From Helicobacter trogontum (GTDB lineage Bacteria; Campylobacterota; Campylobacteria; Campylobacterales; Helicobacteraceae), in assembly GCF_000765905.2 (NCBI RefSeq), contig NZ_JRPL02000003.1:1-64000 (forward strand): 64,000 nucleotides of DNA. The letters are read 5' to 3'. Of this stretch, positions 1-41,202 are shown piece after piece. The notes under the pieces are model-generated. The model did not search any database and was not told the origin of the DNA. It worked only from the letters and a program-made list of their open reading frames with translations. The translations under genes and the position numbers were made by a program. Numbering within the stretch: the first letter of the stretch is position 1; the number at the start of each line of letters is the position of its first letter.

Positions 1-3000
1 TTTTTCTAGCAGTTAATCTTTCTTGTATGTCGTGTAATGTTAATTGCTGTGCATTGGTATTGCTTTGCACTTGTGACAAGCCTTGCTCTTTGGCTTGTTG
101 TGTTAGCTCGTTTGTATTTTTTATGCTAGAATTAGAGCTATCAATCTTGTTGGCTAAAGATTGCGAGGCTTGTAAAAGCTCTGGCGTGTAGAAAATTGAC
201 TCGGAGTTTGGAGATTGATAGATTATTTTTGCTCCCTTTTCTACTTTATTTTTTAATATGTTTTCTTTCTTTGGTGCATTTGAAATACTGATTAAAAAAT
301 CATCTGTTTCCAAATTAATGCTTGTAAAATACTGCTTGTCATCGATTTTCTTTGCTAAAATAATCATTTCATCTATATCTTTTAAAATATAATCTGGATT
401 ATCCAAAGTCTCCTTTACCTGCGGTATATATCGCTCTCTTTCTTTACTCACAAGCTTTAATAAACTCCCCTTTGTGAGTTTTATTTCTTTACCACCTAGA
501 GCTTGTTGTATCTCTTGTGAGTGTTTTGGGATATAGCTTTGTTCTAGGTTTTCAAGCCCAAAGGTTTTTAGCCATTGTTCTTGTGTCTCTTTGCTTAGAA
601 TCTTTTCATTGCCTCTCTTATCTGTGAATGAAATGTCTTGTAGCTCTGTATTTGCATGATTAGCCCTATTTATATCATATACTTTTTGATAGGCTTTTAG
701 TATGTCTTTATTAGTTGATTCTTTATAATGGCGTGTCTGATAGCTTGTTTTCATAACTTCTTCTAAATACTTCTCTTTAAGGTTATTGTTTTGTAGCATA
801 TCTGCCATACCCAAACATCTTTGTGCTATTCCACTATCCTTAAAGCCAAATTCCTCTGCAAAAAATTCAAGCACCTTTTTTTCATTAACCATGAATTCAT
901 CAAACTTATCTGTTTGTCCTGCGTTTATTTGCTCTATTAGCTCTATTTGCTTTGATTCTTGTTCCACTAGCCTTTTTCTTGTTTTTCCACTCTCGCTTAG
1001 TATAAAGTCTGGTATTTTTATGACTTCTTTGTTGTCTATCATTTTATAGCTATGATATTTAGGGTTAAAAACATTATAGCGTTCATCCTCATGCCATGTA
1101 TTCTTTTTCATGTTTTCAACAAGTATGCTATCAGTCTGAAAAGGCTTTCCCATCACATTACCAAACTGATCTAGTGCTTTATTTTCAGTATGCTTATGAT
1201 AAGGCAATAACTTTATCTCTTGTGTGCTCTTTTTAAACTCCTGCACTGAATCTAAGAAATCATTAGTCTTAGCATTAATGTCGTTTAAATGTGCTTTTAG
1301 ATTGGCATTAGCCTTGTAGGGCAGTGCCTTTATCTCATGAGATAAAGGCTTAAAGTCTAGGGCTAATGTAGGCTTATCTAGGGCTTTTATTACACTCATA
1401 TACTCTTTATAGAGATTATGAAATATAAAGTTTTTTATCGCTTGTGAAGTTAAAGGCAGTGCATTGCCCTTAGAATCTACAATAATACTAAAAGGCAAGG
1501 ACATGAAATCTTTAAAGCTTTTTTCTAGCTTTTGCAAGGTATTTAGGGTTTGCTTATACTCAAGGAGTTTAGCTTCATTACGTGCTAATAGTTTGGGATC
1601 TTGTGCTCTGTTATAAGAGATTAAAGCATTATTTGCCTCTTTATTTGTGTTATAAGGGATTAGGACTTGTGTTGTGTTATTTTGTGGTTTTATGAGATTT
1701 GCAATAAAGCTTGGTTTAGATTGAGTAGAGACTATGTTAGTTTTTGTTGTAGCTTGTGTTAAAAGATTATTGCCTAAGCCTTGTATTTTTGGTCCTGCAT
1801 GTTGTATAACATTATATGGCATTAAAGCCTTATTGCTATTTGCACCTAATTCATTCTCTATATCTTTTATAGCTTCTTTGGTAAAGCTAATATTATCTTG
1901 CACTGCATTTAAAGCTCTTTGTGTTTGGCTTATAATAGTGCTATTAGTTTTTAATATGCTTTCCTCATCAAGAACTTTAAGGCTCTTTAAACTCTCTTCT
2001 AGTTCTCTTGCTCTCTCTTGCAACATCTCATATTGTTTATATATATTGTCTAAATGTCTTTGTGTTGCTTTTTCTAATTGTATTTCTCCATTTTCTATCC
2101 TTCTTTGGAATTCAGCCATACCTTGTCTATCAAACTCTACTTGTGTATTATATGGGATTTCTCTTTCCATATCTTGCTTTGTTTGTTTTATTGTGGTAGC
2201 GTTAGGGTTAGGATTTTTGCCACTACTATGGTTAGCGGGGTATGTAATCTGCAAGTCAGAGGGCTTAGTAGTAGTTCCGCCCGATTCTAATATATCAGAC
2301 GCACCAGCAACTTCTCCGCCTTTAAATCCGTTATTGTAAATCACCTTAGATTTTTGCAATTCATTGTTAATATTATTTAACTCTCTTCGTGTATGGCTTG
2401 AGAATATCCATTCATTATTAAAATCTTTTGCAACACTCATGAAATATCGATTTTTATCGCTATCCACAAATTCTTTAATGAATAATATGCCTTTCCCATT
2501 GTCTAAAATAAGATTAGGGTGTTCAATTGTTGGCTTAATATAGGGTAAAAATGCTTCTCTTTGCTTATTATCAAGCTTTACAAGACTTCCTAACTTTAAG
2601 TGAAAATCTTGCCTAATTCCCGCTTTATCTAGAGCCTGTCTTATTTCATCGTTAAACTGCGGTATAAAATCCTCTGTAATGCTTTTAAGGTTAAATTCTT
2701 TTAACCAAGCTTCTTGTAGGTTTTGTGGGATTTCTCTTTCCATATCTTGGTTTGTTTGTTTTTGTGTGGTAGTATCCTCTTTAGAGTTTGATAAGGGAGC
2801 CTTATCTGTAAAAGTGTCGTGGTAGGAAGTCTCGGCACTTCCTCGCTTTATTTGTGGATTGTATTCGTATGCAGTTATTACCCATTTATTTTCACCTTTA
2901 CCATTAAAACCTTTTGACAAACCTACTCTATATTCTTTGTTGTTTTTACTTAAAATGATTGTATTAACTCCATTTTTGCTTAATACTTTTCCTTTTTCTA

Positions 3001-6000
3001 TAATTTCATTAAGCCCATTAATCAGTTTAGTCTCTTTTGTATCTCCTATAAAATCCTTAAATTCATCAATATGTTTTTCTAATATCTTAACAAGTCCAAA
3101 GCCTTTGGCGTCTTTACCGCTCCCTTGCACTTCTCCCCATACCAAATCAATATCCCCTAAGCCATCTTTATGGAATGCACCTGCGACTTGTCCTTGTTTG
3201 ACTTGTAATAAATGCTCTATTGCTAAAGCACCCTTGCCTTGAAACTCTGCGTAATTTTCTCCAAATTGTTGTAAAGGGATTATTTGTTGTTGAGCCACTC
3301 CCTTTATAGAATCTACAACCCCCTTATGTAAGCCCTGCATATCCTGTTCTGTTTTCTGCATAGCATGATTAATAACTGCTTTATACTCTATTAATTGTGC
3401 TTGGTGTGCATTGATGGCATATTGTGTTTGCTGTGCTTCTTTTATGGTATAAAAACTTGCAATGTGATCTTTTTCAAATTGATCTTTCCAATATGATAGT
3501 TCTCTTAATATCCTACCTGTTTCTTTATCTTCTTTTGGCATATTCTTAGAGATAGAATCTATACTAACATGTATAAAATCTTTTGTATCTCTTGCATATC
3601 TTAGTGCCAGAGCTAATTGATGTTCTAGACTTTGATGAGCAAGGTTTTCAGATAAAGCCCCTGCAAATCTTGACATACTCTTATGCACAAAATTATAAAA
3701 GAGTAACAATGTCCTCCCAAATAATCCACTCGCACTGCTTATAAGCACATTAGCAGGTTTGCTGCCTATACTTCTTTGCACCGCTTGTAAAAACTCATTG
3801 TCTGCATGATAAAGCTTTTGGGCTTGTTTGAAGTTAGCAATTAAGCTCTTTAAACCAGAATCTGTAATGCTGTGTTCAATCTTTTCTAAATCCTCTATGA
3901 GTTCTTGCCATTTTATTGCTTTTAGCTGTCCGTTTCCATTGGTGATATTCTTTTGTATAAGCTCCTTTATAACTTGGGCTTGCAGGTTTTTATCTGTATT
4001 GTTTGCAATTTTGTTAAAGACTTTATTGTTAAAGCCCTCACTTCTTTGTGCTTGTTTTAATATTGCTTTGTTAAAGTTTTCATTACTTAGATCTTTTTCT
4101 TTTTTTTTCGTTTTTACAACGTCTTTATAAAATTCGCTTTCTTTGAATCTCGCATAATCTGCATACTCTTTATTGATGTCTTTGTAATTGTTTAAAAGCT
4201 TAGTTGTATTTATTCCGCTTTTGTTCTCTAAATCTTTAAGACTAGATTCTATAGCAGAATCTATTTCTTTATTGATAGCTTGCAAATGCTTGTAGCTTGC
4301 GTTTTTAAAATCCTTAGAACGCAATATATCATTATAATATTTACGAATATCAAGCAAATCATCTATCTTTAGAGCTATATCCCCTTGTGTATTGCTTCGT
4401 GCTTGAAGCTTTTCTAGCATAGCACTGATAGTTTGTCCTGCATTTGTTACATGCGGTATAGATTGTTTTAAATTGATTAAAGTATCTTGTATGTTCTTTG
4501 CAGTATCGCTAAAATCTAGATGATCTAGCGAACGCACAATATCAAATTCTACCCTGCCATATCTTTCTTTTAACCCTTTTGCATAGTCGCTATCCATATC
4601 TTTAAACATTCTTTGCGTTAGAGCTTCACTCTCTATACTTTTTGCGACATTATTTGCCCTTTTATCTATGAATTTTCCAAAGTTTTGGGCAAGTGTTGGA
4701 TTTTTAGAGATAACACTACTTAAAGCAGAATGCAAGGCTTCATTTTGAGCTACAAAGCGTAAGAACTTTTCTCTTTCAATGCGTGTAGCCTTACCTTCAA
4801 ACATATCTTGCAGTATATCCATTATAGGACGATTAGATTCCATACTTGTAGTTTGAAAGCTTTCAAAATCTTTGCTTAAAGCTTCTAGCTTTTCTTTCCC
4901 TTTTGCCATACTCTCTTTATTGATATATTTTTCATACTGCCATGCAGCTTTTAATCGCTCTAGCTTTGGGATACTTGTATCGCTCTTATACTCTGCAAGG
5001 CTTCTGCCATTTAAGAATTGTTTTTGTGCGGTCTGCATTATAGCTTCTCTTTCGTTGCTATCTAGTGCATTTTTAGCTAAGAAGTTTGTCACTGAATTGA
5101 CATTGCCATGAAGGAATAATGCAGATTTATTGCCAATGTTTTTTGCTGCTTGTTGTATATCAAACTTGGAAAATACATCTTGTGCTTTAGCTACGCCTTT
5201 AGCCATACCCATTATAGCCGCATTTCCAATTAGATCAAGGCTTGCAGCCTCTAGTGCCTTTTTTACACCCAAATCACTATTGGCATAACCAGTCACAATT
5301 TTATTGATAGCAGAATCTGTTAATGCTCCAATGCTTGTCCCAATCATAGAACCAAGAATACCACCTGTTAAAGCTCCAGTAGCTTTCCCTGCAGCACCTC
5401 CAATTTTTACTTTACTTGCCCCCTGCATTGCCCCATATGCAGCACCAGCAATACCGCCTATTACCTCGCCCTTAGCCGCATAAAGACTATAGAGTATGCT
5501 AGACATTAAAGTAGGGTTGATCGCATAAGCTTTTTGCCCCTCTTTTTCATTCATGATAGCAATGAGTGTATTATCTTTAGTGAAGGCAAGAGAATCTAAA
5601 TCTTTGTATTTTTCATCTTTTTTCAAGATAGTTGCAAAATCACTTAGAAAAGCTTGTTTTACCTCTTTTTGTATGTTTTTATCTCGCAAGAAATTAAATA
5701 TTCTGCCATAATCGTGCTCATGCTTTATTGTTTCAGCAATTCTATCAAGGTTAGAGTCTGCATAGACTTTAGCAGGGCTGCTCTCATATTTTTCTTTTGC
5801 TTCTTTGAGTTTCTTGTATGCTTTTTCTTTTAGTTGTGCTTGTTTTGAAGGTGAATCTTCATTGAGCATATCTGCATAGATATCTCTAAATTCATTGAAA
5901 GCCTTAGAAGCTCCCTCGCTCACACTTATTGCCATATCCATATACTTAAAGAACTCTTCTACATGTTGGTATTGCCCTTCTGGTAGCAAGGAGGTTAGCC

Positions 6001-7282
6001 CAAAAGTAAGGGTATCTAGTGCCCCTTTTGCTATATCTCTCTGACCATTAATATAACTTGCGAAGTGGCTATGAGCATTAAGTGGTCTTCCATCTATTGT
6101 TGTTATGCCTTCAAGATTTTTTTTATATTCTCCTAAAACCTTTTCTAATCCACCTGCTTCTAGTATATTAAAGCCTTCAATCGGACTAAATCCATTTTTT
6201 ATTTGTTCCTCTAAGTTATTTTTATTATCAAATTTATATGTATTGTTAAACCAATCTGAAACTTGTTCTAAGTATCCCTTGTCTTTTTGCTCTCTTTCTT
6301 GTTTTTTTGTGCTAAAATCCTTAAGTGCTGTAACAAATTCTTTTATGTCACGTTGTTTGTTTGTTGTATCTGCTTCCTCATTTTTTGCCTCTTCTTTTGT
6401 CTCTGTTTTTTGAGGCTTACTCTCTTTAAACTTTATCTTAAATCCTACATTCCCTCCACGTTCATAAAATCTTGCCAAACTTTCATAATCTGTAATATCA
6501 TTGTCTTTTAATATGCCATATTGCATGTATTGTTCTAAAACATTTTTATATTCCTTTGAATCTTTGCCATAAGTCTTTTTGGCAGTCTCAAGAGCTGCTA
6601 CTGCCCTATCTATTAATCTAAATCTTTTAAAGACTTCATCATCCACATTTGCATCATCATCGATATTGTGTAATAGATTTGATTTTGCTGCCATAGCAAG
6701 TTTATAGTTTTTAAATTCATGCGGTTCGCCTAAGAATGCAGTTGTGTTTCTTGTGTATGCAGATTGATTAAAGTGTGTATCATATTTTGTTGCTTCTCTT
6801 TCTCTTTGCAATGTGCTTTTCTTGGATTTAAATGGTGTTTGTGGAATCTGTGCTTGTTGTGTAGTCTGGCTTTGTGGTTTAAAATCTTTGTTACTGCTTA
6901 GAGCTATTTCTTTATCAAAGGCATTTGCATGTGTGTTATTTTGCGTAGTGGTGTATGCTTGTGTAGGCGTGGTATTTGTTTGTGGTTTTGTAATGCTTTC
7001 TTGTGGTAGCATGTTTTGACTTTGCGTGGATGAGACATTGCTACCTATATTGATATTACCGATATTTTGTTGTGTTTGTTTATCTTGTGGAATTTGTGCG
7101 TTATTTGCAGTATGTTGTGAGATTGTGTTTTGAGGTATGTTTGTGTTCTGTGCGTTTAAATTAGCATTATTTACGCTTTCTTGTGCTTGTTTTAATAGAT
7201 TTGTAGTTTTTAGTTCTTCAAGTGTAGAAGAAATAAAATCTTTATCTTTTTCTTGTTGTTGTGGTGTAAATAAATAACCCAT
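1..7282 (-). CDS. Giant prophage protein (at least 2427 aa, 3' end outside window) with DUF3519/PBECR nuclease-like domains
   Basis: The frame is open without a stop from an ATG at 7282 (AAGGGG five bases upstream) to the left edge, so the protein is C-terminally incomplete here. Residues 1-200 are Gln/Thr/Asn-rich. Around residues 600-665 lies a Gly/Ala-rich glycine-zipper-like hydrophobic stretch (GAAYGAMQGASK, GGILGSMIGTSIGAL), and residues 700-1300 are largely helical. A DUF3519-type domain (putative barnase/colicin E5-like endoribonuclease of Helicobacter and Campylobacter) begins near residue 1365, with GDIDLVWGE and KILEKH. Two mutually similar PBECR-type domains follow, at about 1530-1650 (GSLVKLDNKQRE) and 2240-2370 (GSLLKLVSKERE). 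Family knowledge: podoviruses such as the Bcep22 group carry a giant virion protein of this sort, thought to be ejected into the cell. Inference: an ejected protein carrying polymorphic-toxin-like modules. An in-frame ATG at 7309 lacks a ribosome-binding site. Certain as a gene; role inferred. Confidence 0.85.
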   Translation of the reverse strand, partial: MGYLFTPQQQEKDKDFISSTLEELKTTNLLKQAQESVNNANLNAQNTNIPQNTISQHTANNAQIPQDKQTQQNIGNINIGSNVSSTQSQNMLPQESITKPQTNTTPTQAYTTTQNNTHANAFDKEIALSSNKDFKPQSQTTQQAQIPQTPFKSKKSTLQREREATKYDTHFNQSAYTRNTTAFLGEPHEFKNYKLAMAAKSNLLHNIDDDANVDDEVFKRFRLIDRAVAALETAKKTYGKDSKEYKNVLEQYMQYGILKDNDITDYESLARFYERGGNVGFKIKFKESKPQKTETKEEAKNEEADTTNKQRDIKEFVTALKDFSTKKQEREQKDKGYLEQVSDWFNNTYKFDNKNNLEEQIKNGFSPIEGFNILEAGGLEKVLGEYKKNLEGITTIDGRPLNAHSHFASYINGQRDIAKGALDTLTFGLTSLLPEGQYQHVEEFFKYMDMAISVSEGASKAFNEFRDIYADMLNEDSPSKQAQLKEKAYKKLKEAKEKYESSPAKVYADSNLDRIAETIKHEHDYGRIFNFLRDKNIQKEVKQAFLSDFATILKKDEKYKDLDSLAFTKDNTLIAIMNEKEGQKAYAINPTLMSSILYSLYAAKGEVIGGIAGAAYGAMQGASKVKIGGAAGKATGALTGGILGSMIGTSIGALTDSAINKIVTGYANSDLGVKKALEAASLDLIGNAAIMGMAKGVAKAQDVFSKFDIQQAAKNIGNKSALFLHGNVNSVTNFLAKNALDSNEREAIMQTAQKQFLNGRSLAEYKSDTSIPKLERLKAAWQYEKYINKESMAKGKEKLEALSKDFESFQTTSMESNRPIMDILQDMFEGKATRIEREKFLRFVAQNEALHSALSSVISKNPTLAQNFGKFIDKRANNVAKSIESEALTQRMFKDMDSDYAKGLKERYGRVEFDIVRSLDHLDFSDTAKNIQDTLINLKQSIPHVTNAGQTISAMLEKLQARSNTQGDIALKIDDLLDIRKYYNDILRSKDFKNASYKHLQAINKEIDSAIESSLKDLENKSGINTTKLLNNYKDINKEYADYARFKESEFYKDVVKTKKKEKDLSNENFNKAILKQAQRSEGFNNKVFNKIANNTDKNLQAQVIKELIQKNITNGNGQLKAIKWQELIEDLEKIEHSITDSGLKSLIANFKQAQKLYHADNEFLQAVQRSIGSKPANVLISSASGLFGRTLLLFYNFVHKSMSRFAGALSENLAHQSLEHQLALALRYARDTKDFIHVSIDSISKNMPKEDKETGRILRELSYWKDQFEKDHIASFYTIKEAQQTQYAINAHQAQLIEYKAVINHAMQKTEQDMQGLHKGVVDSIKGVAQQQIIPLQQFGENYAEFQGKGALAIEHLLQVKQGQVAGAFHKDGLGDIDLVWGEVQGSGKDAKGFGLVKILEKHIDEFKDFIGDTKETKLINGLNEIIEKGKVLSKNGVNTIILSKNNKEYRVGLSKGFNGKGENKWVITAYEYNPQIKRGSAETSYHDTFTDKAPLSNSKEDTTTQKQTNQDMEREIPQNLQEAWLKEFNLKSITEDFIPQFNDEIRQALDKAGIRQDFHLKLGSLVKLDNKQREAFLPYIKPTIEHPNLILDNGKGILFIKEFVDSDKNRYFMSVAKDFNNEWIFSSHTRRELNNINNELQKSKVIYNNGFKGGEVAGASDILESGGTTTKPSDLQITYPANHSSGKNPNPNATTIKQTKQDMEREIPYNTQVEFDRQGMAEFQRRIENGEIQLEKATQRHLDNIYKQYEMLQERARELEESLKSLKVLDEESILKTNSTIISQTQRALNAVQDNISFTKEAIKDIENELGANSNKALMPYNVIQHAGPKIQGLGNNLLTQATTKTNIVSTQSKPSFIANLIKPQNNTTQVLIPYNTNKEANNALISYNRAQDPKLLARNEAKLLEYKQTLNTLQKLEKSFKDFMSLPFSIIVDSKGNALPLTSQAIKNFIFHNLYKEYMSVIKALDKPTLALDFKPLSHEIKALPYKANANLKAHLNDINAKTNDFLDSVQEFKKSTQEIKLLPYHKHTENKALDQFGNVMGKPFQTDSILVENMKKNTWHEDERYNVFNPKYHSYKMIDNKEVIKIPDFILSESGKTRKRLVEQESKQIELIEQINAGQTDKFDEFMVNEKKVLEFFAEEFGFKDSGIAQRCLGMADMLQNNNLKEKYLEEVMKTSYQTRHYKESTNKDILKAYQKVYDINRANHANTELQDISFTDKRGNEKILSKETQEQWLKTFGLENLEQSYIPKHSQEIQQALGGKEIKLTKGSLLKLVSKERERYIPQVKETLDNPDYILKDIDEMIILAKKIDDKQYFTSINLETDDFLISISNAPKKENILKNKVEKGAKIIYQSPNSESIFYTPELLQASQSLANKIDSSNSSIKNTNELTQQAKEQGLSQVQSNTNAQQLTLHDIQERLTARK

Positions 7283-7338
7283 GCAAACCCCTTGAGAATC
7301 TTTTTGCATGAGTTTAATATAAGTAAAAGCATAAGTAT

Positions 7339-16066: not shown

Positions 16067-16504
16067 TTACGCCAAATTTAACTCTTTTTTTAACTCTGCT
16101 ACATATGCTTCACCATCTTTATTGTAGCTCCACCTTGCCTTGTAACCCCTTGTATCTAAATGCACAAAACCGCCAAATTCATTATATTGATTAATGCTTA
16201 AAGCGATTCCATAAGATTTGTCATTGTAGGTTTGTAATACATGTTTAAAGACTTCTTTTGTAGGCACATCTTTGATTATGAAATCTACTGCATCACCTAC
16301 TAGATGTCTTGATCTACTTGCACCATTATTCCTTTTGTTGTTTTCAGGACATCTATAAGGGCTATTAATTATCAAAGGCTTACCAAAGTGCTCTCTAATT
16401 TCTACCAACACATCTACAAGCTCATCAGGCGGCATACCTTTAGGCAATTTGCCACAACATTTACATCTAAATTCTTTTTCTTGAAAATATGGATTTTCTT
16501 TCAT
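16067..16504 (-). CDS. M15 family peptidase, probable endolysin
   Basis: 145 residues; ATG at 16504 after AAAGGAAC. Typical Peptidase_M15_3 (D-Ala-D-Ala carboxypeptidase-like): the SRHLVGDAVDF motif supplies zinc ligands His67 and Asp74, and VHLDTRG supplies the third His115 with Asp117. An N-terminal CKCCG cluster (residues 14-18) is common in this subgroup. It cuts peptidoglycan stem peptides. There is no signal peptide, so a holin or virion delivery is needed; membrane proteins at 25750-26387 are candidates. Role as lysin inferred from family and context. Confidence 0.8.
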   Translation of the reverse strand: MKENPYFQEKEFRCKCCGKLPKGMPPDELVDVLVEIREHFGKPLIINSPYRCPENNKRNNGASRSRHLVGDAVDFIIKDVPTKEVFKHVLQTYNDKSYGIALSINQYNEFGGFVHLDTRGYKARWSYNKDGEAYVAELKKELNLA

Positions 16505-19662: not shown

Positions 19663-19941
19663 ATGATGTTTTTTAGGATATTTTTTCTTTGCGGTATGCA
19701 AGTGGGTATGCTTTATAGTGCTTGTGAATGTATGTGTGTGAATGGACATGTTGAGGCAGTTTGTCAGAAGAGTTATGAGGTGCGTCCCGTATGCACACCC
19801 AGAGTATGCCCTATTACTCCCCCAAGCATAGCACCTATTGAAAGCCCACAACTTCCCCCTTTAGGCACAACTTCATGTCATCAAGCACAAGTTTATAATG
19901 AATATACAAGGCAATATGAATGGCAAAGGATTTGTCAATAG
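19663..19941 (+). CDS. Small secreted Cys/Pro-rich phage protein
   Basis: 92 residues. The N-terminus is a signal peptide or lipoprotein-like segment (FFRIFFLCGMQVGMLYSA), followed by CECMCVNGHVEAVC and a Pro-rich stretch with CTPRVCPITPPSIAPI, ending QYEWQRICQ. I recognise this as a small family found in many tailed phages of Gram-negative bacteria (Cys-pair head, CPI.PPSI.PI centre, C-terminal YEW..C), of unknown function. TATAAT overlaps the start region (19660). The second ATG (19666) is an equally good start. The Cys residues suggest disulphides in the periplasm. Confidence 0.6.
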   Translation: MMFFRIFFLCGMQVGMLYSACECMCVNGHVEAVCQKSYEVRPVCTPRVCPITPPSIAPIESPQLPPLGTTSCHQAQVYNEYTRQYEWQRICQ

Positions 19942-25081: not shown

Positions 25082-25519
25082 ATGTCTAAGTTCAGAGATC
25101 CATTGCATGTTAAGGTTTTAGATGATGGTAAGAGTTATCAGGTTATAGAATCTTTTACGTATTATTTAGAAGATGATAATGAATGTTTGCTTGTAGTAGA
25201 AAATGGCTTTATTACAGACTTTGCAAGTGTGCCTAGAATATTTTGGAGTATCTTTCCTCCTTTTGGTAGATACACAAAACCAGCAGTATTGCATGACAGA
25301 TTATGCGTAGCTTTTTTGAATAAGGAATTATGGAATAACGTGGCAATAAATGAGGCTAAATTGCCTGTTAAGCTACATAATCGTTTTGTACGAAGAAGTG
25401 AAGCTGATAAAATGTTTTTAGAGTCTATGAAATCTATTAAGGTGAATGTCTTTACACGTTATATATTGTATTTTAGCGTCCGTTTGTATGCTATATTACA
25501 ATATGGTAGGAAAGCCTAA
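25082..25519 (+). CDS. DUF1353 family phage protein
   Basis: 145 residues; ATG at 25082. It shows the DUF1353 core: GFITDFASVPRIFWSIFPPFGRYTKPAVLHD..C, with the conserved TDFASVPR and HD motifs, followed by R..AD..FL. DUF1353 proteins are common in tailed-phage genomes near lysis or tail genes; their biochemical role is unknown, though the DxxSVP and HD residues suggest a hydrolase-like fold. A hairpin terminator overlaps the end of the gene. Confidence 0.75.
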   Translation: MSKFRDPLHVKVLDDGKSYQVIESFTYYLEDDNECLLVVENGFITDFASVPRIFWSIFPPFGRYTKPAVLHDRLCVAFLNKELWNNVAINEAKLPVKLHNRFVRRSEADKMFLESMKSIKVNVFTRYILYFSVRLYAILQYGRKA

Positions 25520-25749: not shown

Positions 25750-26244
25750 GTGAAACCAATCTATGATTTTATAGCAAACTATTTTTATGTATTCATCGTG
25801 CCTTTTCTTAGTATTGCAGTGTATCTTTCTTTGCAGTATCTAACACGTGGCATGTCTTTTTTTATAGATGAAAGAGGTAATATTAAATGGAAGTTTTTAG
25901 TGTTTAGTGCTACCTTGCAATTCTTTGTAAGCATAATAATCACTTGGAGCGTTTTAAGTGCTTTTTCAAGTGATTTTTTAAGTGAATATGAAACAATCAA
26001 AATCACATCTGTTATTATTATAGGAGCAGCCCCTTTTAATATCACTATTCTTGTGTGGGTAGCCCTAAAGCTTGAAACCTACAAGATGATGAGAAGCAGA
26101 TATGGTGATGAGTTTATCCAAGATGACTTCTTTATAAAAGCTAGTGAAGTGCAAAAGATAGAAGATACAAGGACACATACAACAAAGCCTGATATAAAAG
26201 ATAGCTCCTATTCTATAAACACTCAAACAAAGGAGACAAAATGA
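25750..26244 (+). CDS. Three-span membrane protein, holin-like
   Basis: GTG at 25750 chosen because AAAGGAG lies five bases upstream (164 aa). Three hydrophobic segments: about 9-28 (FYVFIVPFLSIAVYLSLQYL), 45-68, and 82-105 (ITSVIIIGAAPFNITILVWV), then a hydrophilic Lys/Asp/Thr tail of about 55 residues. Size, topology and neighbourhood suit a phage holin, but no family is recognised. It ends in ATGA overlap with the next gene. Confidence 0.5.
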   Translation: MKPIYDFIANYFYVFIVPFLSIAVYLSLQYLTRGMSFFIDERGNIKWKFLVFSATLQFFVSIIITWSVLSAFSSDFLSEYETIKITSVIIIGAAPFNITILVWVALKLETYKMMRSRYGDEFIQDDFFIKASEVQKIEDTRTHTTKPDIKDSSYSINTQTKETK

Positions 26245-26387
26245 AAAAATCTGATTATTTTATACTCATTTTCATATTTTGTCTAGCTTTTGCCTATCTA
26301 GCTTATGAGCTATATATGATATATAGCATACAAACAGCATTGCAAAACCTTACTCTCATTCTACATAAAAAAGGACTTATCCTATGA
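26241..26387 (+). CDS. 48-aa single-span membrane peptide
   Basis: ATG at 26241 with AAGGAG upstream; stop TGA 26385-26387. MKKSDYF is followed by one transmembrane segment (ILIFIFCLAFAYLAYELY) and a short amphipathic tail. It overlaps both the upstream and the downstream gene by four bases, so all three are translationally coupled. Too short for most gene finders. A lysis accessory (spanin- or antiholin-like) or assembly factor is possible. Confidence 0.6.
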   Translation: MKKSDYFILIFIFCLAFAYLAYELYMIYSIQTALQNLTLILHKKGLIL

Positions 26388-26833
26388 CTAAAATCTTAAT
26401 GATTATTATTTCTCTAATTTTTATCCTATTTTACATGCAAATAAAAGATTTAAGGAGTGATTCTACAGCTATGAAAAAGGATATAAATCATATTGTAAGT
26501 ATGATCTCCTTATTAAAAGATAGATTAGACATAAAAGATAGGGAAATAGAGGAAAGGAATATGCAAATAGCCAAATACAATGCAAACTATGATGCCTTTA
26601 ATGGCACAGCTTGTATGCAATGTCATTTAGATAGTAATCATTTGCTACCTTATTCAGGTAAAGAGCTAATGGGTTTGGATGACTATATACGAGTTGTTAG
26701 AAATGGTATAGGAAATGTCATGCCAAGCTATATTAATAGTCCTAACAAAACGAGTAAAGATATTACAGATAGTGAGCTAAGAAGACAATATAAGATATTA
26801 AAAAACTTTACTGATAAAGTTAAAATACAATAA
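26384..26833 (+). CDS. Membrane-anchored monohaem c-type cytochrome encoded by the prophage
   Basis: 149 residues. Residues 1-19 form an N-terminal membrane anchor, 22-68 a charged coiled coil, and 70-120 a class I cytochrome c-like domain: Cys77-Met-Gln-Cys80-His81 (CxxCH) and a distal GIGNVMPSY with Met113 as probable sixth ligand. The protein would be periplasmic and use host cytochrome c maturation. The arrangement anchor + coiled coil resembles an inner-membrane spanin with a haem domain added. It overlaps the 48-aa gene by four bases. Haem binding is a strong motif prediction; purpose in a phage is unknown. Confidence 0.7.
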   Translation: MTKILMIIISLIFILFYMQIKDLRSDSTAMKKDINHIVSMISLLKDRLDIKDREIEERNMQIAKYNANYDAFNGTACMQCHLDSNHLLPYSGKELMGLDDYIRVVRNGIGNVMPSYINSPNKTSKDITDSELRRQYKILKNFTDKVKIQ

Positions 26834-28549: not shown

Positions 28550-29161
28550 ATGAAAAAATTTGTCTATCTGTGTCTAAGCTCTTTTATGATTATGCAGGCA
28601 AATCCACTCAAAGAATGTCAAAATGATCAAGATAAAATAAGTGGGTGCATTGAAAAAACTTATCATGAAAATGGTAATTTACAACAAGAAACTCCATATC
28701 AAAATGGTAAGAGACAAGGTATTGGAAAAGCTTATTATAAAAATGGTAATTTAAACTTTGAAACTCCATATCAAAATGACAAGATACAAGGTATTGGAAA
28801 AGCTTATTATGCAAATGGTAATTTGATGGGAGAAACTCCATTTCAAAATGACAAGATACAAGGTATTTCAAAAGCTTATGATGAAAATGGTAATTTACAA
28901 CAAGAAACTCCATATCAAAATGATAAGAGACAAGGTATTTCAAAAGTTTATTATGAAAATGGTAATTTACAACAAGAAACTCCATATCAAAATGACAAGA
29001 TACATGGTATTGTAAAATATTATTATGAAAATGGTAATTTAGGTCTAGAAATTGTATATAAAGATGGCGTAGCAATCTCTGGGAAGTGTGCAAATGGTAA
29101 AAAGCTCACAAATGCACACCTGCATAATTTTACCAATGGAGATGGAGTAAATTGTAATTAG
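28550..29161 (+). CDS. Secreted MORN-variant (YwqK-like) repeat protein
   Basis: 203 residues; ATG at 28550 after AGGGGT. An N-terminal signal peptide (about residues 1-20, hydrophobic, MKKFVYLCLSSFMIMQ) is followed by tandem 24-residue repeats of the type YENGNLQQETPYQNDK, the MORN-variant motif of the 'YwqK family antitoxin' group. The repeats form stacked beta-hairpins, whose role in Helicobacter is unclear. The gene lies at the prophage border and could be host or phage-carried. Repeats make it prone to copy-number change. Confidence 0.65.
   Translation: MKKFVYLCLSSFMIMQANPLKECQNDQDKISGCIEKTYHENGNLQQETPYQNGKRQGIGKAYYKNGNLNFETPYQNDKIQGIGKAYYANGNLMGETPFQNDKIQGISKAYDENGNLQQETPYQNDKRQGISKVYYENGNLQQETPYQNDKIHGIVKYYYENGNLGLEIVYKDGVAISGKCANGKKLTNAHLHNFTNGDGVNCN
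28671..29060 (+). repeat. 72-bp tandem repeats in the MORN-like gene
   Basis: Five full units and a partial sixth, with period exactly 72 bp (ATGGTAAT at 28671, 28743, 28815, 28887, 28959, 29031). Units are near-identical at DNA level, each in frame (24 residues). Confidence 0.9.
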
Positions 29162-33675: not shown

Positions 33676-34437
33676 ATGGTAGAAGTTGGTATTTTTGGAG
33701 CAACTGGCAGAGTAGGTAAATTATTAATTGATGAAATACTAGAATGTAAACAAGCTAGTCTAGCAAGCGTGTACGTGCGTAATGAACTGCATTACAACAT
33801 TCCCGCCAATACACTTGTTACAAGCAACATGACTGATTTCTTAGAATCAAGTCAGGTAATCATTGATTTTTCAAGTGCAGAAGCAACTAAGAATTTACTA
33901 GAACATGCAAGGATGCATCCCACGCCACTTGTAATTGGCACAACAGGGCTACAGACATCACATATGCAGCTTTTAGAGCAATGTGCAAAGTCTATGCCAA
34001 TTTTATATGCGACAAATATGAGTGAGGGTGTGGCTATGTTAAACAAGCTTGTTGCACTACTTAGTACGCAACTTCGCAACTATGACATTGAGATTACAGA
34101 GATTCATCATCGGCATAAAAAAGATGCACCATCTGGCACAGCCCTCACTCTTGCAAAAACTGCCGCAACTGCACGAAATTTAGATGAAAACGTCTTAAAA
34201 TTTGGCAGAGAAGGACTAGCATTGCGTAATAAAGATGAAATAGGTGTGTTAAGTCTTCGTGGTGGTGATGTTGTTGGACGACACACTGTTGGTTTCTATG
34301 CAGATGGCGAGTATATCGAGCTAACACATAATGCAACCTCAAGGGCTACTTTTGCTAAAGGTGCTTTACATGCAGCACTTTGGCTTATAAATCAGCCAAG
34401 TGGGCTTTATAGTATGCAAGATATATTTGAATTTTAA
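33676..34437 (+). CDS. dapB: 4-hydroxy-tetrahydrodipicolinate reductase
   Basis: 253 residues; ATG at 33676, nine bases after the trxB stop. Nicotinamide-nucleotide site GIFGATGRVGKLL, and the catalytic EIHHRHKKDAPSGTAL with His/Lys typical of DapB. It acts in the lysine/diaminopimelate pathway and so feeds peptidoglycan. Full-length. It is immediately followed by the phase-variable methyltransferase. Confidence 0.95.
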   Translation: MVEVGIFGATGRVGKLLIDEILECKQASLASVYVRNELHYNIPANTLVTSNMTDFLESSQVIIDFSSAEATKNLLEHARMHPTPLVIGTTGLQTSHMQLLEQCAKSMPILYATNMSEGVAMLNKLVALLSTQLRNYDIEITEIHHRHKKDAPSGTALTLAKTAATARNLDENVLKFGREGLALRNKDEIGVLSLRGGDVVGRHTVGFYADGEYIELTHNATSRATFAKGALHAALWLINQPSGLYSMQDIFEF

Positions 34438-34449
34438 TATGAGGTTACT

Positions 34450-35528
34450 ATGCAAATAAAAAAATCTCATATCATCAATGGCATTACATACTTCACCCCC
34501 CCCCCCCCATATTAGACACCTTTGCTAAAAAATCTCATGATACTTCTTTATCTAACCCATCTTCCAAGCACCCTGCATCACAAGCATTAGAAACTAATGC
34601 TGATTTTCATTTCCCTAGTGAAGGCATGGATATGCTATATCTAGCTGAAAATAAACATTTTTGGCATATTGCAAGACGAGAGTTTATTTATCAAGAAATA
34701 AGTCGCATTCTCACATGTCTGTATCCACAAGATAGTGGCAAAAATGTAAAAATTCTAGATGTAGGTGCTGGCACAGGAAGTATTACAAGACATTTTTTAT
34801 CACAGGGATTTAGCAATATCGCTTTAGGTGAAATCCATCCACAAGGTTTAGAATATGCTAAAACCTATGGTATAAAGGATCTGTATTGTATGGATTTGCT
34901 TGACGTACCTTTTCAAGATGAGTTTGACTGCATCTTTGCTTTTGATGTATTAGAGCATATTGATAATGACGCTGAAGCATTAAAAAATATGAAAAGTATG
35001 CTAAAAAATAACACAAAAAGTCTTTTGGCACTTAGTGTTCCTGCTCACAAATGGTTATGGAATATGCATGATGTTCATGTACATCATAAACGAAGATACA
35101 CTAAGATTGAACTTGTAAATCTCATGAAACAGAATGGATTTGAAATTGTATGTGCAAAATATTTTTTTATCTCTATCACTCCATTGTTGTGGATTAGAGC
35201 ATTACTGCATTCTGCACCATATCCAAATAAACAATTAGATTCTATAAACAATCTTAATATAACATCAATATCTAGTAATACTGCAAAATCAAACCCAAAT
35301 CAGCAGATAAACACACATATGATGCAAAACAAGAAAACAAGTTGCTATGTAGAATCTTGTGAAAAAACTAGCAAAGAAGAACTACGTGATACGCCACCGC
35401 CTTCACTTATTAACAGCTCGTTACTTGGACTTTGTCGACTAGAAAATAAAATTCAGTATTATCTTCCACAAAACCTTAGTGCACCATTTGGTGGTTCACT
35501 GCTTATAATTGGACGAAGTGTATCCTAA
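34450..35528 (+). CDS. Phase-variable SAM-dependent methyltransferase (OFF frame as read)
   Basis: ATG at 34450 with GAGG six bases upstream, 13 bases after dapB. With the 13-C tract at 34496-34508 the frame ends at a TAG (34513); with 14 or 11 C it would join the long downstream frame and give about 360 residues. The downstream part is a class I methyltransferase: motif I ILDVGAGTGSITRHF, then CIFAFDVLEHIDND (motif II/post-II). The C-terminal 100 residues are low-complexity Ser/Asn/Lys. Homologous enzymes often act on lipids, quinones or glycans; substrate unknown here. The downstream frame could only start from an internal ATG (34626) with no good ribosome-binding site. Confidence 0.75.
34496..34508 (+). 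repeat. 13-C homopolymeric tract (contingency locus)
   Basis: Thirteen consecutive C within codons 16-20 of the methyltransferase. Slippage by +1 or -2 would restore the frame. Such tracts are the classical phase-variation device of Helicobacter and Campylobacter. Confidence 0.9.
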
Positions 35529-36074
35529 TATGTTGTATAAATTATCATTCACATATATTAACCATCCACAAAACCACATAAATCACGTGGATACATTAAA
35601 AAAGATCTAAAAATAATTTATATATAGTTTTTGCAAGGTATCAAAGAAACTTCAACGTATTTACAAACCAAACATAAAAACATTTGATGAAGCATGATTT
35701 AGGTTTTCTTGACTTTTTGGAATCTTCTAAGTGTTTTTTACGCAATGAGTATATAAGACTTATTTACTAAGTTATTTCATATTTGTATCAAACGCTTAAG
35801 CCTAGATGTTTCATGTAGTTATCTTTGCTACTATTATGTATATAAAGATTTTTGATTTGTAATCATCTAGCAATAGCTGCCAAATGATTTTTAAGATTCT
35901 ATAATGTGAGGTAATGAAAAACACTTTTAAAAAGTTACTCTTTGGAGGATAACACGATTAAAGCCAACAAAAAGAGAAAAAGAGCAATAAGAGCTTATAA
36001 AAGGAAACTTTGCCTAGTGCATTCTCAAAATCTTGCAACGCCTAAAGAGGGTCGCAAGTCTTTCAATCAAGCCT
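35529..36074. other. Intergenic, 546 nt
   Basis: Convergent region between the methyltransferase and cmeB. AT-rich; a short basic frame near 35950-36090 lacks a normal start codon. Nothing convincing seen. Confidence 0.4.
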
Positions 36075-39000
36075 TTAGCCTTTTCTTTTATTGAGCCATT
36101 CACCAAATCTTGCTACATAACTCCAAAAAAGCGGGATAAAAAATATTGCAATAAAAGTTGCCGCCATCATACCGCCAATCACACCCGTTCCAATAGCATG
36201 TCTACTTGCACTTCCTGCACCACTACTTAATGCTAAAGGTAATACACCTATACTAAATGCCAAAGAAGTCATAATAATAGGGCGGAATCTAAGTTTTGCT
36301 GCACCTATAGCGGCTTCCACAATGCTTTTTCCCTCTCTCTCATGTAAATGCTGTGCAAACTCTACAATTAAGATTGCATTTTTGGCTGATAAGGCAATAA
36401 GCATAACAAGACCAATTTGAAAATATATGTCGTTATCAAGACCACGCAACATTGTCGCAATAACTGCACCAAAAACTGCAAATGGCACAGCGGTAAGTAC
36501 AGATAAAGGCATAAGCCATCGTTCATATTGAGCACATAAAATAAGAAATACAAACACAATTCCAAAAACAAAGGCTATAACCCCTGCACCATCTGTATTC
36601 TTTTCTTGATAGCTAGAACCAGAATAGGCTATAGTATAACCTTGAGGTAACACCTCTTTTGCTATTTCCTCAATCGCCCTTAGTGCATCTCCACTTGAAT
36701 AATCACCTTGTGGTTGTCCTGTTATTTTTGCACTCATAAAGAGGTTGAACCTATCAACAATGTCTGCACCAGTAACACGTTTGAAATCCACCAAAGAACT
36801 TACGGGAACCAAATCGCCCTTATTTGACTTCACAAACACTCTACTTAAATCCTCTGGAGATTTTCTAAATTCACTTTGTGCTTGTATATTCACTTGGTAG
36901 GTTTTTCCATATAAATTAAAGTCATTGACATAATATTGTCCAAAAACACTCTGCATCGTAGTGAAAACATCATCTATATTTACACCCATAGATTTTGCTT
37001 TTTCTCTATCAAGTGTAATAAAGTACTGCGGAACATTTGGATTAAACATGTTATTTACACGTGTTAATTCTGGTCTCTGTTTTGCCTTTTCAACAATCAA
37101 ATTTGCATATTTTTCAAGATCTTGTATTGTACCATTACTTCTATCTTGGACATATATCTCAAATCCACCAGCAAGAGATAAACCATTAATAGGGGGTGCG
37201 CCAAACACAATAGCATTTGCTTCCAATTGCTTATTTAATAAACCATAGAATTTACCCACAACACTTGCTGAATCTTGTTCTCTTTCATTCCATTTTTTAA
37301 GTGTTGTAAAGATTGTGGCACTACTTGTTCTAGCAGATCCAGCAAGCATATCATAACCTGCAATCAAAAAGCTATAATCCACATTTGGATCCTGCTCAAA
37401 TAAAGCCAATGCTTTTTTACCTTCTGTGATAGTACGTGAAAGTGATGAAGCGGGTGGCAATTGCAATGAAGTTATAACAAGACCTTTATCTTCATTTGGC
37501 ACAAGCCCTGTTGGTAATTTCATAAAAAGTCCCCATGTGACACCAATGATAGCAACAAAACAGAGTATTAAGAGAATACCATGTCGCAATGCTTTTGCAA
37601 TTTGTTTGCCAAATTTAAATGTAAGCCAATCAAATACATCATTAAATCGTTTTACAAGATAAAAAGGTTTGTGTGCTTTTGCTTTTAGGATGGACACACA
37701 AAGTGCGGGTGTAAGTGTCAATGCAACAAAACCAGAAATAACTACAGAAATAACAATAGTGATTGCAAATTGTTTATAAATCGCACCAGTAAAACCTCCA
37801 ATAAATGCCACTGGAATAAATACCGAACAAAGCACAAGCACAATTGCTACAACTGGTCCTTGAATCTCACTCATAGCTTTTAATGTGGCTTCTTTTACAG
37901 AATATTTCTCACCATTTTCTTTTGTCTCTGTATGCAATATCCTCTCCACATTCTCGATAACAATAATAGCATCATCCACAACAATACCAATTGCTAAAAT
38001 AAGTCCAAAAAGCGTCAATAGGTTGATTGAAAATCCAAGCATATACATCCCTGCAAATGCACCCACAATGGATACAGGGATAGCAATCACAGGAATGATG
38101 GTAGCACGGAAGTTTTGCAAGAAAAAATACATAATGATAATAACAAGCACAATAGCTTCAATAAATGTTTTTACAACTTCCTTGATAGAGATTCTAACAA
38201 ATGTAGTGGTATCATATACATTTTCATATTGTATCCCATTTGGAAAATTCTCCGATAATTCCTGCAATTTCTTTGCAACACCATTAGCCACATCAAGTGC
38301 ATTTGCCCCAGGTTGTGCTGCAATACCAAAGCCAACAGAATCTTTTCCTTTGAAAAGTGGGCTTACGCTATAATCTTTTGCACCAAGCTCTATTCTTGCT
38401 ACATCTTTCAATCTTAGTGAACTTCCATCTGCATTAGAACGAATAATAATATTACCAAATTCTTCAGGATCAATAAATCTTCCTTGCGTTGTCACAGAAT
38501 ATGTAAAAGCAACTTGTCCTTTCAATGGTTCTGCACCAAATGAACCAGCTGCAAACTGCGCATTTTGCTCTGAAATAACCTGTGCAACTTCACTTGGTGA
38601 AAGATGATTTTGTGATAATTTATTAATATCAAGCCAAATTCTCATTGAATAATCACGACTGCTAAAAACAACTACATCCCCTACCCCTCGCACTCTTTTA
38701 AGCTCATCAACAACATTAATCAAAGCATAGTTTGCCACATAAGTTGAATCATAAATAGTGTTATCAGAATACATCGCATAAATGGCAAGTAAAGTCGAAG
38801 ACTTTTTAAACACATTAACACCCACTCTTTGGACATCTGCAGGTAATCTCGACAAAGCAGCTTGCACCCTATTGTTAACATTTACCATTGCCATATCTGC
38901 ATTTGTGTCATTACTAAAATATACGCTGATATTTACCATTCCACTTGATGATGATGAGGACTTCATGTATAGCATACCTTCAACACCATTAATGCTATCT

Positions 39001-39197
39001 TCTAGTATGCTTGCAACAGTATTGGCAACGACTTCAGCACTCGCTCCAGTGTATGTCGCCCTTACAACAATTTCATTTGGAACAACTTGGGGATACTCTT
39101 CTACGGGTAAAATTAATATAGAAATCGCACCAACAAGAGTTATTACTATGGATAAGACCATAGCAAAAATAGGACGATTGATACAGAATTTTGACAT
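36075..39197 (-). CDS. cmeB: RND multidrug efflux inner-membrane pump, AcrB/CmeB type
   Basis: 1040 residues. ATG at 39197 preferred (AAGGAG upstream, TGATG overlap with cmeA); a TTG three bases earlier is less likely. Typical HAE1 RND pump: MSKFCINRPIFAMVLSIVI start, TM2-6 with GLILAIGIVVDDAIIVIENVER (the Asp pair for proton relay is in TM4), periplasmic pore and porter domains, and TM12 region. It exports drugs, bile salts and dyes with the periplasmic adaptor CmeA and an outer-membrane channel. No channel gene is adjacent. Confidence 0.93.
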   Translation of the reverse strand: MSKFCINRPIFAMVLSIVITLVGAISILILPVEEYPQVVPNEIVVRATYTGASAEVVANTVASILEDSINGVEGMLYMKSSSSSSGMVNISVYFSNDTNADMAMVNVNNRVQAALSRLPADVQRVGVNVFKKSSTLLAIYAMYSDNTIYDSTYVANYALINVVDELKRVRGVGDVVVFSSRDYSMRIWLDINKLSQNHLSPSEVAQVISEQNAQFAAGSFGAEPLKGQVAFTYSVTTQGRFIDPEEFGNIIIRSNADGSSLRLKDVARIELGAKDYSVSPLFKGKDSVGFGIAAQPGANALDVANGVAKKLQELSENFPNGIQYENVYDTTTFVRISIKEVVKTFIEAIVLVIIIMYFFLQNFRATIIPVIAIPVSIVGAFAGMYMLGFSINLLTLFGLILAIGIVVDDAIIVIENVERILHTETKENGEKYSVKEATLKAMSEIQGPVVAIVLVLCSVFIPVAFIGGFTGAIYKQFAITIVISVVISGFVALTLTPALCVSILKAKAHKPFYLVKRFNDVFDWLTFKFGKQIAKALRHGILLILCFVAIIGVTWGLFMKLPTGLVPNEDKGLVITSLQLPPASSLSRTITEGKKALALFEQDPNVDYSFLIAGYDMLAGSARTSSATIFTTLKKWNEREQDSASVVGKFYGLLNKQLEANAIVFGAPPINGLSLAGGFEIYVQDRSNGTIQDLEKYANLIVEKAKQRPELTRVNNMFNPNVPQYFITLDREKAKSMGVNIDDVFTTMQSVFGQYYVNDFNLYGKTYQVNIQAQSEFRKSPEDLSRVFVKSNKGDLVPVSSLVDFKRVTGADIVDRFNLFMSAKITGQPQGDYSSGDALRAIEEIAKEVLPQGYTIAYSGSSYQEKNTDGAGVIAFVFGIVFVFLILCAQYERWLMPLSVLTAVPFAVFGAVIATMLRGLDNDIYFQIGLVMLIALSAKNAILIVEFAQHLHEREGKSIVEAAIGAAKLRFRPIIMTSLAFSIGVLPLALSSGAGSASRHAIGTGVIGGMMAATFIAIFFIPLFWSYVARFGEWLNKRKG

Positions 39198-40471
39198 CAA
39201 ATCTCCTTTTTATGTGTAGCATCTGCTTGATTAGATTCCATGCTATGTTTCATAAGATCTGCACTCTTTGAGTTTCCAGAGTTTTGCAAGATCGGAGTTA
39301 CAGGTGTATTTGCATGAATTTTTGGCAATTGATTTGTAATCAAAATATCACCATTACTAAGCCCATCAAGAATTAACACTTCATTATTTGGAAGATTTTG
39401 CCCTAGTGTTACCCTTGCAACCTGTGCTTTATTATCCTTGGCTACAAACACATAACTCCCCTCTTTGTCTTGTAAAAGTGAAGTTTGAGGAATTGCGATT
39501 GCATTTTGCACCTCAAAACCCTTTAATCTTACGCGTACAAATTCATTCGGTACAAGCTTATATTCATTGTTATCAATAATCGCTCTTGCTTTAACTGTAG
39601 CAGTTTGTGAGTCCAATACACTATCGATAAAATCCAATTTACCCATCTTGTTATATGTCTTACCATTTCCCAATACAAATTCAACCTGTATACTACTATC
39701 CTCTAAACCTCTCATAAAATAATAATCTCTATTAGGGATAGAAAATTCCGCATATATAGGACTTAACTGCGTAATGGTTGTCAAAACATCTTGACCGCTT
39801 TGACCCACTAGATTTCCAACATCATGTTTCCGCATACCTATACGCCCATTGATACCTGCCATAACTTTTGTGTAACCTAAATCAATTTGAGCATCCTCTA
39901 ATGCAGCCTTTGTGCTTGCAAGATTTGCTTGTGCTTGCAGGTAATTTGCTCTTGAAGTATCGTATTGATCTATGGTATATACACCCTGCTTATACAAACT
40001 CTCTACCCTTTTCCAATCGCGATTCGCCCTTACAAAATTTGCCTCTGCAGAATGATATTGTGCCTTTGCCTGATTTACTTTTGCTTGGTAGCGTACAGGA
40101 TCAATTTTGAAGAGCAATTGTCCTTCTTTTACAATATCCCCCTCATTGAAATTCTGGGTTAAAAGTATACCTTGCACTCTCGCATACACATCAACACTTT
40201 GTATACTTTTCAGTCTCGCTGGATACTCAAAATTAAGTGCCACATTTTGCGATACGATACTTTTTGCTTGAACTTCTAAAGTAGCTTCTTCCTGCGTCTG
40301 CTGTGTGGAATCTTTGCAACCTATAATCATAAGAGCAAACATAATCATACATATCGCTACAAACAAAAACGAATGATGTATTTTGATTATGTTAGCTTTT
40401 ATGATTTTATTCCATGTTTGCATATAAAAAGCATAGAATAACCCTATATATAATTGCATACTTTTTTGCAT
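39197..40471 (-). CDS. cmeA: RND efflux periplasmic adaptor, AcrA/CmeA type
   Basis: 424 residues; ATG at 40471 has AAAGGAG seven bases upstream. A 45-residue N-terminal segment precedes a lipobox (FALMIIGC), so the protein is probably a lipoprotein anchored in the inner membrane. Barrel-sandwich hybrid and coiled-coil hairpin follow (ARVQGILLTQNFNEGDIVKE; AKVNQAKAQYHSAEANFVRA). Long n-region is odd, and an internal start is possible. It overlaps cmeB by one base. No repressor gene is adjacent. Confidence 0.9.
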   Translation of the reverse strand: MQKSMQLYIGLFYAFYMQTWNKIIKANIIKIHHSFLFVAICMIMFALMIIGCKDSTQQTQEEATLEVQAKSIVSQNVALNFEYPARLKSIQSVDVYARVQGILLTQNFNEGDIVKEGQLLFKIDPVRYQAKVNQAKAQYHSAEANFVRANRDWKRVESLYKQGVYTIDQYDTSRANYLQAQANLASTKAALEDAQIDLGYTKVMAGINGRIGMRKHDVGNLVGQSGQDVLTTITQLSPIYAEFSIPNRDYYFMRGLEDSSIQVEFVLGNGKTYNKMGKLDFIDSVLDSQTATVKARAIIDNNEYKLVPNEFVRVRLKGFEVQNAIAIPQTSLLQDKEGSYVFVAKDNKAQVARVTLGQNLPNNEVLILDGLSNGDILITNQLPKIHANTPVTPILQNSGNSKSADLMKHSMESNQADATHKKEI

Positions 40472-41202
40472 AATCTGCTCCTTTCATAAATGCTTGATTA
40501 CAGCTCTAATGAAAGGGATAATTCTAGCACGATTTTATAAATATTTGCGTATGCAACTAATATTTTCTTAAATATCATTGAACATTTTATTCACTAAAAA
40601 ATAATTTTTTTATATAAATATTACAAAATATAGAATATTTTATTAATTAAAAATATATTAAACATATTCCTATGTTGCTTTATAAATAAGAATATCAATA
40701 AACATATAACTGTTTTATAAACCCTAAAGCTTATATAGTAGGAAAGCAATAAACTCTTATCAAGATTATGATGTAAATTGATTCTATATACCCTAATAGA
40801 ATAAGCAGTATAAATAAATTACAGATGAACTTTAGTTATTTATATTATTTTTTTGTATAACTGAATTGCAAAAAAAGTATTTATAATTTTAGATGTAGTG
40901 TATTTAACTTTGATTTTTATGTAAGGATAAATAATAAGTCTTATTTGTGGTTTCTTGATGTAGTCAGAAGCTTTGATTCTATCAAAATTATGCTATTAGA
41001 ATCATAGGTGTAAAACCACACATTAAAGCCTGTTTTAGCTTCTATATCTAAATTCTGCTAAAAGCTAAACCTTAAGCTTTAATATTTCTAAGATAAAAAT
41101 TCCACGTTTATAAACCCAAAAAATGGTTATAAAACATGCTAAATATACATTCTTCTTACGACTGGTCGCCTAAAATGCACTTCACTTTATAAATCTTAAA
41201 AA
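40472..41202. other. Intergenic, 731 nt, between cmeA and amtB
   Basis: Very AT-rich. It holds the promoter of cmeA and a two-part hairpin at 41022-41083. No gene with a good start and ribosome-binding site was found. Confidence 0.4.
41022..41083. terminator. Two-segment hairpin downstream of amtB
   Basis: ATTAAAGC (41022-41029) pairs with GCTTTAAT (41076-41083), and TTTAGCTT (41034-41041) with AAGCTAAA (41062-41069), both perfectly. It could end the amtB transcript, lying 120 bases past its stop, or belong to a small RNA. Confidence 0.4.

Follow-up and report, generated by a model that had tools for sequence, protein, structure and literature searches.

Class I holins (lambda S105 type) have three transmembrane (TM) segments arranged N-out/C-in, and the proton motive force has been linked to holin triggering (PMC9636201). 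The antiholin RI of T4, a periplasmic protein, binds the holin T and has been proposed as a sensor of DNA in the periplasm (PMC8385771). The locus analysed here was a prophage region in which a predicted membrane-anchored c-type cytochrome was encoded together with a 3-TM protein, and neither of these two families had a convincing match in PHROGs, Pfam, or NCBIfam. No phage c-type cytochrome of such kind was found in the open-access literature (most subscription journals and all preprints lay outside it), and the words cytochrome, heme, and lysis were absent from the main text of the 2025 Helicobacter prophage survey (PMC11840440).

The first ~30 kb of the window (the whole 64,000-nt stretch of DNA that was analysed), which belonged to a Helicobacteraceae-like contig, constituted a prophage cut by the contig start, and host genes followed from ~31 kb, including those for shikimate dehydrogenase, thioredoxin, and thioredoxin reductase (names read off the sequences). 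The prophage encoded a portal protein (phrog_156), a major capsid protein (phrog_334/Phage_capsid_3), and tape-measure-like plus tail-type proteins; its M15-type endolysin was, by eye, devoid of an export signal. It also contained (i) an open frame of 2,436 aa at 2-7309 (- strand) that ran off the contig start (a very large ORF, 33949-40893, was likewise found close to the lysis genes of the H. canis prophage BK070053); (ii) a repeat protein at 28550-29161 (+ strand), just 3' of the cassette described below, with MORN-like units YxENGNLxxETPYQNDK and a weak match to phrog_7324; and (iii) an apparently exported protein of 92 aa at 19663-19941 (+ strand), rich in Cys and Pro and without a PHROG match, possibly a secreted protein or an o-spanin-like one that escaped recognition.

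The three cassette genes (25750-26833) were chained by successive ATGA overlaps and were therefore coupled (Table 1), as the first-pass annotation had proposed. The 48-aa ORF in the middle was present in the window only, of all the loci compared.

Table 1. Positions of the cassette, its neighbours, and the haem-ligand candidates in the window
Feature	Position	Strand	Remarks
M15-type endolysin of the window prophage	16067..16504	-	phrog_894 endolysin, E 8e-36
DUF1353 protein	25082..25519	+	phrog_1158, tail assembly chaperone; upstream of cassette
3-TM partner, holin candidate	25750..26244	+	GTG start; conserved family adjoining cytochrome
48-aa single-TM ORF	26241..26387	+	Bridges 3-TM and cytochrome genes via ATGA overlaps
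Predicted membrane-anchored c-type cytochrome, 149 aa	26384..26833	+	Anchor, coiled coil, CxxCH, distal Met
CMQCH, predicted haem-attachment motif, residues 77-81	26612..26626	+	C, C, H invariant (16 members)
Met 113, candidate distal haem ligand	26720..26722	+	Invariant; in 'VMPSY', 32 residues past His

The cytochrome ORF was confirmed to be real, and the anatomy first read from it (N-terminal anchor, coiled coil, C77-x2-C80-H81, and distal M113) held. The hydrophobic anchor occupied ~residues 3-19 (TM segments, here and below, were called with simple hydropathy), a predicted helix spanned residues 2-72 with the coiled coil extending to ~72, and the haem motif was followed by the landmarks LP 88-89, VR-G 105-108, and M113-P114 and then by a C-terminal helix; with this arrangement, the haem domain would face the periplasm. 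Given the composition of the protein, a CxxCH was expected by chance at ~5e-4, and a chance origin was rejected by conservation of the motif across the family.

Homologues of the cytochrome, some of them remnants, were detected in 14/121 genomes of the window's family; 15 genomes matched at first, and G110 was removed as a coiled-coil match only, with no haem motif. Some copies in these 14 genomes were truncated, lay at the edge of a contig, or were broken up by stops, and the matches at G000:C8 and C42 were discarded as loci without a cytochrome-like ORF in the gene calls. Two further families of the order carried homologues, represented by G140 (listed with 8% contamination) and G522. Among 50,697 phage records, nine Helicobacter records (H. 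canis, cinaedi, jaachi, and equorum prophages) encoded the cytochrome, annotated as 'hypothetical' in all nine; these records and many additional prophage loci excluded a host insertion without phage relatives, and the gene was prophage-encoded, as first suggested. Viral contigs scanned with the window, G522, G040, and G047 proteins singly gave no match, and scans with group-B members gave only Helicobacter loci of known type.

Anchor, stalk, and haem motif were all retained in the full-length members, and proteins of the family were mostly 20-43% identical to the window protein. Just eight columns (C77, C80, H81, L88, P89, V105, M113, and I127) were invariant in the alignment of 16 members, the His-Met spacing was 31-33 residues in every member, and the V-R-G motif was kept in nearly all. 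Pairwise dN/dS values of 0.09-0.33 pointed to purifying selection on the cytochrome. The gene was common to three capsid groups without detectable similarity to one another (phrog_334, phrog_617, and phrog_1328), which argued that it passes from one phage type to another and is retained. As for degenerate or isolated copies, the truncated cytochrome of G115 (L039, 9166-9992) directly adjoined an IS605 TnpB-like ORF, which seems to have replaced its N-terminus, while a pseudogene in G041 (L038, 9305-9665) and the lone intact copy in G036 (L032, 1272-1700) lay near the same host gene (obg-like), suggesting a shared prophage site.

The profile of the family was aligned to host CcoP-/c553-type cytochrome domains by hhalign with a probability of 87% (E 3.7e-6), and both CxxCH and Met-Pro lined up in this alignment. 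Cytochrome_CBB3 (PF13442) was matched by 11/14 members at E <= 0.1, the best at 1e-5. Two features of class I c-type cytochromes were present, namely a CxxCH conserved in 16 members and a distal Met C-terminal to it. AlphaFold models built from shallow alignments were of moderate quality (pLDDT 79 and 72); their top Foldseek matches were cytochromes c6A and c6, a PCMH cytochrome, and cd1 nitrite reductase, all short of significance (E > 0.1), and Foldseek against viral proteins gave no match. PDB profile matches to DsbC and nitrite reductases covered only short CxxCH-like stretches and were set aside. The host genome encoded ResB/CcsBA (System II haem ligase) as well as cytochromes of CcoP/c553 type, and queries with host c553/CcoP-type sequences yielded no other phage cytochromes. 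Because of the profile match, the Cytochrome_CBB3 matches, and the host ResB/CcsBA, the phage protein very likely binds haem.

The usual neighbour of the cytochrome gene encoded a 3-TM protein of one family (~160-220 aa) with a charged C-terminal tail. Three TM segments, the hallmark of class I holins, were called by hydropathy, with a fourth segment scored in some members; no PHROG or Pfam holin family was matched, and the partner is therefore termed a candidate rather than a class I holin member. The possibility that it was a b-type cytochrome was rejected, there being no conserved His in the family. A subgroup of the partners carried a CxxC (CETCG, CQTCG, or CEHCG) in the tail past the last TM segment (L018, 6498-6992; L028, 1206-1721; L029, 8994-9551; and L031, 6684-7223).

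Both the cytochrome and the 3-TM holin candidate were encoded in nine of 50,697 phage records, and the H. canis partner query retrieved the same nine records as the H. canis cytochrome query. Among 397 genomes sampled across the class, all partner-bearing genomes also had the cytochrome (8/8), while two had the cytochrome without the partner: G088, whose contig stopped just past the cytochrome, and G115, whose copy was the truncated remnant. The gene order took two forms: (i) the partner gene preceded the cytochrome gene in H. jaachi, G055, G037, G040, G047, and the window and (ii) the cytochrome gene preceded the partner gene in H. canis, cinaedi, magdeburgensis, equorum, and G522. Overlaps of 1-4 nt occurred at several junctions, and three pairs (H. 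canis, G047, and G522) were 200-270 nt apart. Pairwise distances of cytochrome and partner co-varied (r = 0.88; 0/9,999 permutations), with shared phage ancestry as one contributor to the correlation. Few partners lacked a cytochrome next to them, namely three apparent prophage remnants (L076-L078), one of which had a cytochrome pseudogene 15 kb off, and G039, where the two genes were on separate contigs; in G140, the cytochrome adjoined an unrelated 2-TM protein and a GH108 endolysin.

The surroundings of the pair were those of lysis genes, in agreement with the initial description of the cassette as lysis-like. GH108 endolysins were encoded with the pair, or with the cytochrome, in H. cinaedi, magdeburgensis, equorum, MIT 00-7814, G044, and G140, an M15 endolysin accompanied the pair in G522, and a TM coiled-coil i-spanin plus a lipoprotein o-spanin were encoded alongside in H. 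jaachi, magdeburgensis, cinaedi, and equorum. In H. canis, the o-spanin gene overlapped the cytochrome gene, and an i-spanin relative lay elsewhere. The partner was the sole multi-TM protein of the H. equorum prophage record and the only convincing small multi-TM protein of the window prophage; the endolysins, lacking an export signal by eye, would need a holin, and the partner thus became the holin candidate by elimination. BK070053 also contained a gene annotated as retron-type reverse transcriptase (L108, 29883-30935).

A periplasm-facing haem protein acting as the redox-gated, antiholin-like regulatory partner of a 3-TM holin is the reading that we prefer, tentatively and with somewhat less than even confidence. 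The N-terminal anchor would fix the phage cytochrome in the inner membrane, the coiled-coil stalk would hold its haem domain in the periplasm, and the haem would be attached by the host CcsBA system. The adjoining 3-TM protein would be the phage holin and the cytochrome its regulator, as either an antiholin or a trigger. In microaerophiles, the redox state of the host cytochrome pool follows oxygen and electron supply; the phage haem would take its redox or ligand state from the terminal oxidase and the periplasmic cytochrome pool of the host, this state would restrain or release the holin, and lysis timing would then track respiration. The T4 RI precedent and the link between holins and the proton motive force speak for this reading, the haem would be exposed to the host cytochrome pool, and a redox- or ligand-gated holin partner is the economical model. 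The missing holin-family match of the partner, the lack of significant structural matches, the pairs 200-270 nt apart, and the unrelated 2-TM neighbour in G140 count against it. The narrower proposal, that the cytochrome reads the electron pressure of the respiratory chain and gates the holin by direct contact as a redox-sensing lysis switch, is possible but rather doubtful; if it is true, the phage would lyse or hold off depending on oxygen or respiration.

The same class-I-like domain, with its His/Met ligands, would also suit electron transfer as such, and the cytochrome might be an auxiliary respiratory protein that passes electrons to or from a host oxidase or peroxidase during infection, maintaining energy or removing oxygen, with the partner as a scaffold or assembly factor. 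CcoP/c553-type cytochromes were indeed present in the host, and the 3-TM protein matched no holin family; but the pair was found among endolysin and spanin genes across unrelated phages, neither His nor any other redox residue was conserved in the partner family, and the H. equorum prophage would be left without any holin candidate, so that a respiratory role is unlikely. Service to the lysogen, by blocking the DNA entry of other phages or by detoxifying peroxide or nitric oxide, would account for a membrane pair kept by prophages and for its varying position in the window and G039. Most loci with enough flank nevertheless placed the pair in the cassette beside endolysin and spanins, and no immunity-region location was seen among the loci compared; superinfection exclusion or host protection is accordingly highly unlikely.

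The cytochrome shared an N-terminal anchor and a coiled coil with Rz-like i-spanins and had weak Rz-like profile matches (phrog_739, E 0.021), which, together with the overlapping o-spanin gene of H. canis and the failure to find any spanin in the window prophage (cut by the contig start), would fit an i-spanin that bears haem, or a component of a spanin complex, with the haem domain forming the periplasmic tip. The separate i-spanin and o-spanin genes in the prophage cassettes of four host species and the i-spanin relative elsewhere in H. canis stand against such a role, as does the co-divergence of the cytochrome with the 3-TM protein; given these separate genes, the cytochrome probably does not serve as the spanin, it is unlikely to be the only spanin of these phages, and a haem-tipped spanin is distinctly unlikely. 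Of the spanin-likeness noted at first, the anchor and coiled coil stood, while the closest genetic tie was to the 3-TM holin candidate. That the CxxCH is structural or metal-binding, with no haem attached, would agree with the weak fold matches and with the score of the window protein against Cytochrome_CBB3 (15.7 bits), under the curated cut-off of 27; it is extremely unlikely in view of C, C, H, and Met invariant at constant spacing, of LP and V-R-G kept in nearly all members, and of the hhalign match to host cytochromes.

Under the preferred reading of a haem protein regulating the 3-TM holin, phages of Helicobacter and its relatives may couple host bursting to host respiration, and phages of microaerophiles would have, in a haem protein dedicated to their lysis cassettes, a direct connection between respiration and lysis. 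A defined sensor would then make it possible to test how holins perceive the energy state of the membrane, an old question, and two 'hypothetical' families in prophages of enteric Helicobacter become a named, testable pair.

Compared to class I c-type cytochromes (CcoP domains, c553, and c6; PF13442), the phage family shared CxxCH, the distal Met-Pro, and the C-terminal helix, but it was phage-encoded, was anchored on a long coiled coil, was located in lysis cassettes, and had a His-Met spacing of only 31-33. Compared to T4 RI, the cytochrome was likewise predicted to be exported with a periplasmic domain and was genetically tied to a holin candidate, but it had no detected relation to RI and differed in its haem domain on a coiled coil and its uncleaved-looking anchor. 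Compared to Rz-like i-spanins, it likewise combined an N-terminal anchor with a coiled coil and lay in a lysis region but carried a haem domain, and several of the same cassettes held a separate i-spanin. Compared to lambda S105-type holins, the partner similarly displayed three predicted TM segments, a charged C-terminal tail, and endolysin/spanin neighbours, but it was larger (~160-220 aa), was paired with a cytochrome gene, and had a CxxC tail in some members. Lysis cassettes are a known kind of system, and the haem member of this one appears to be new.
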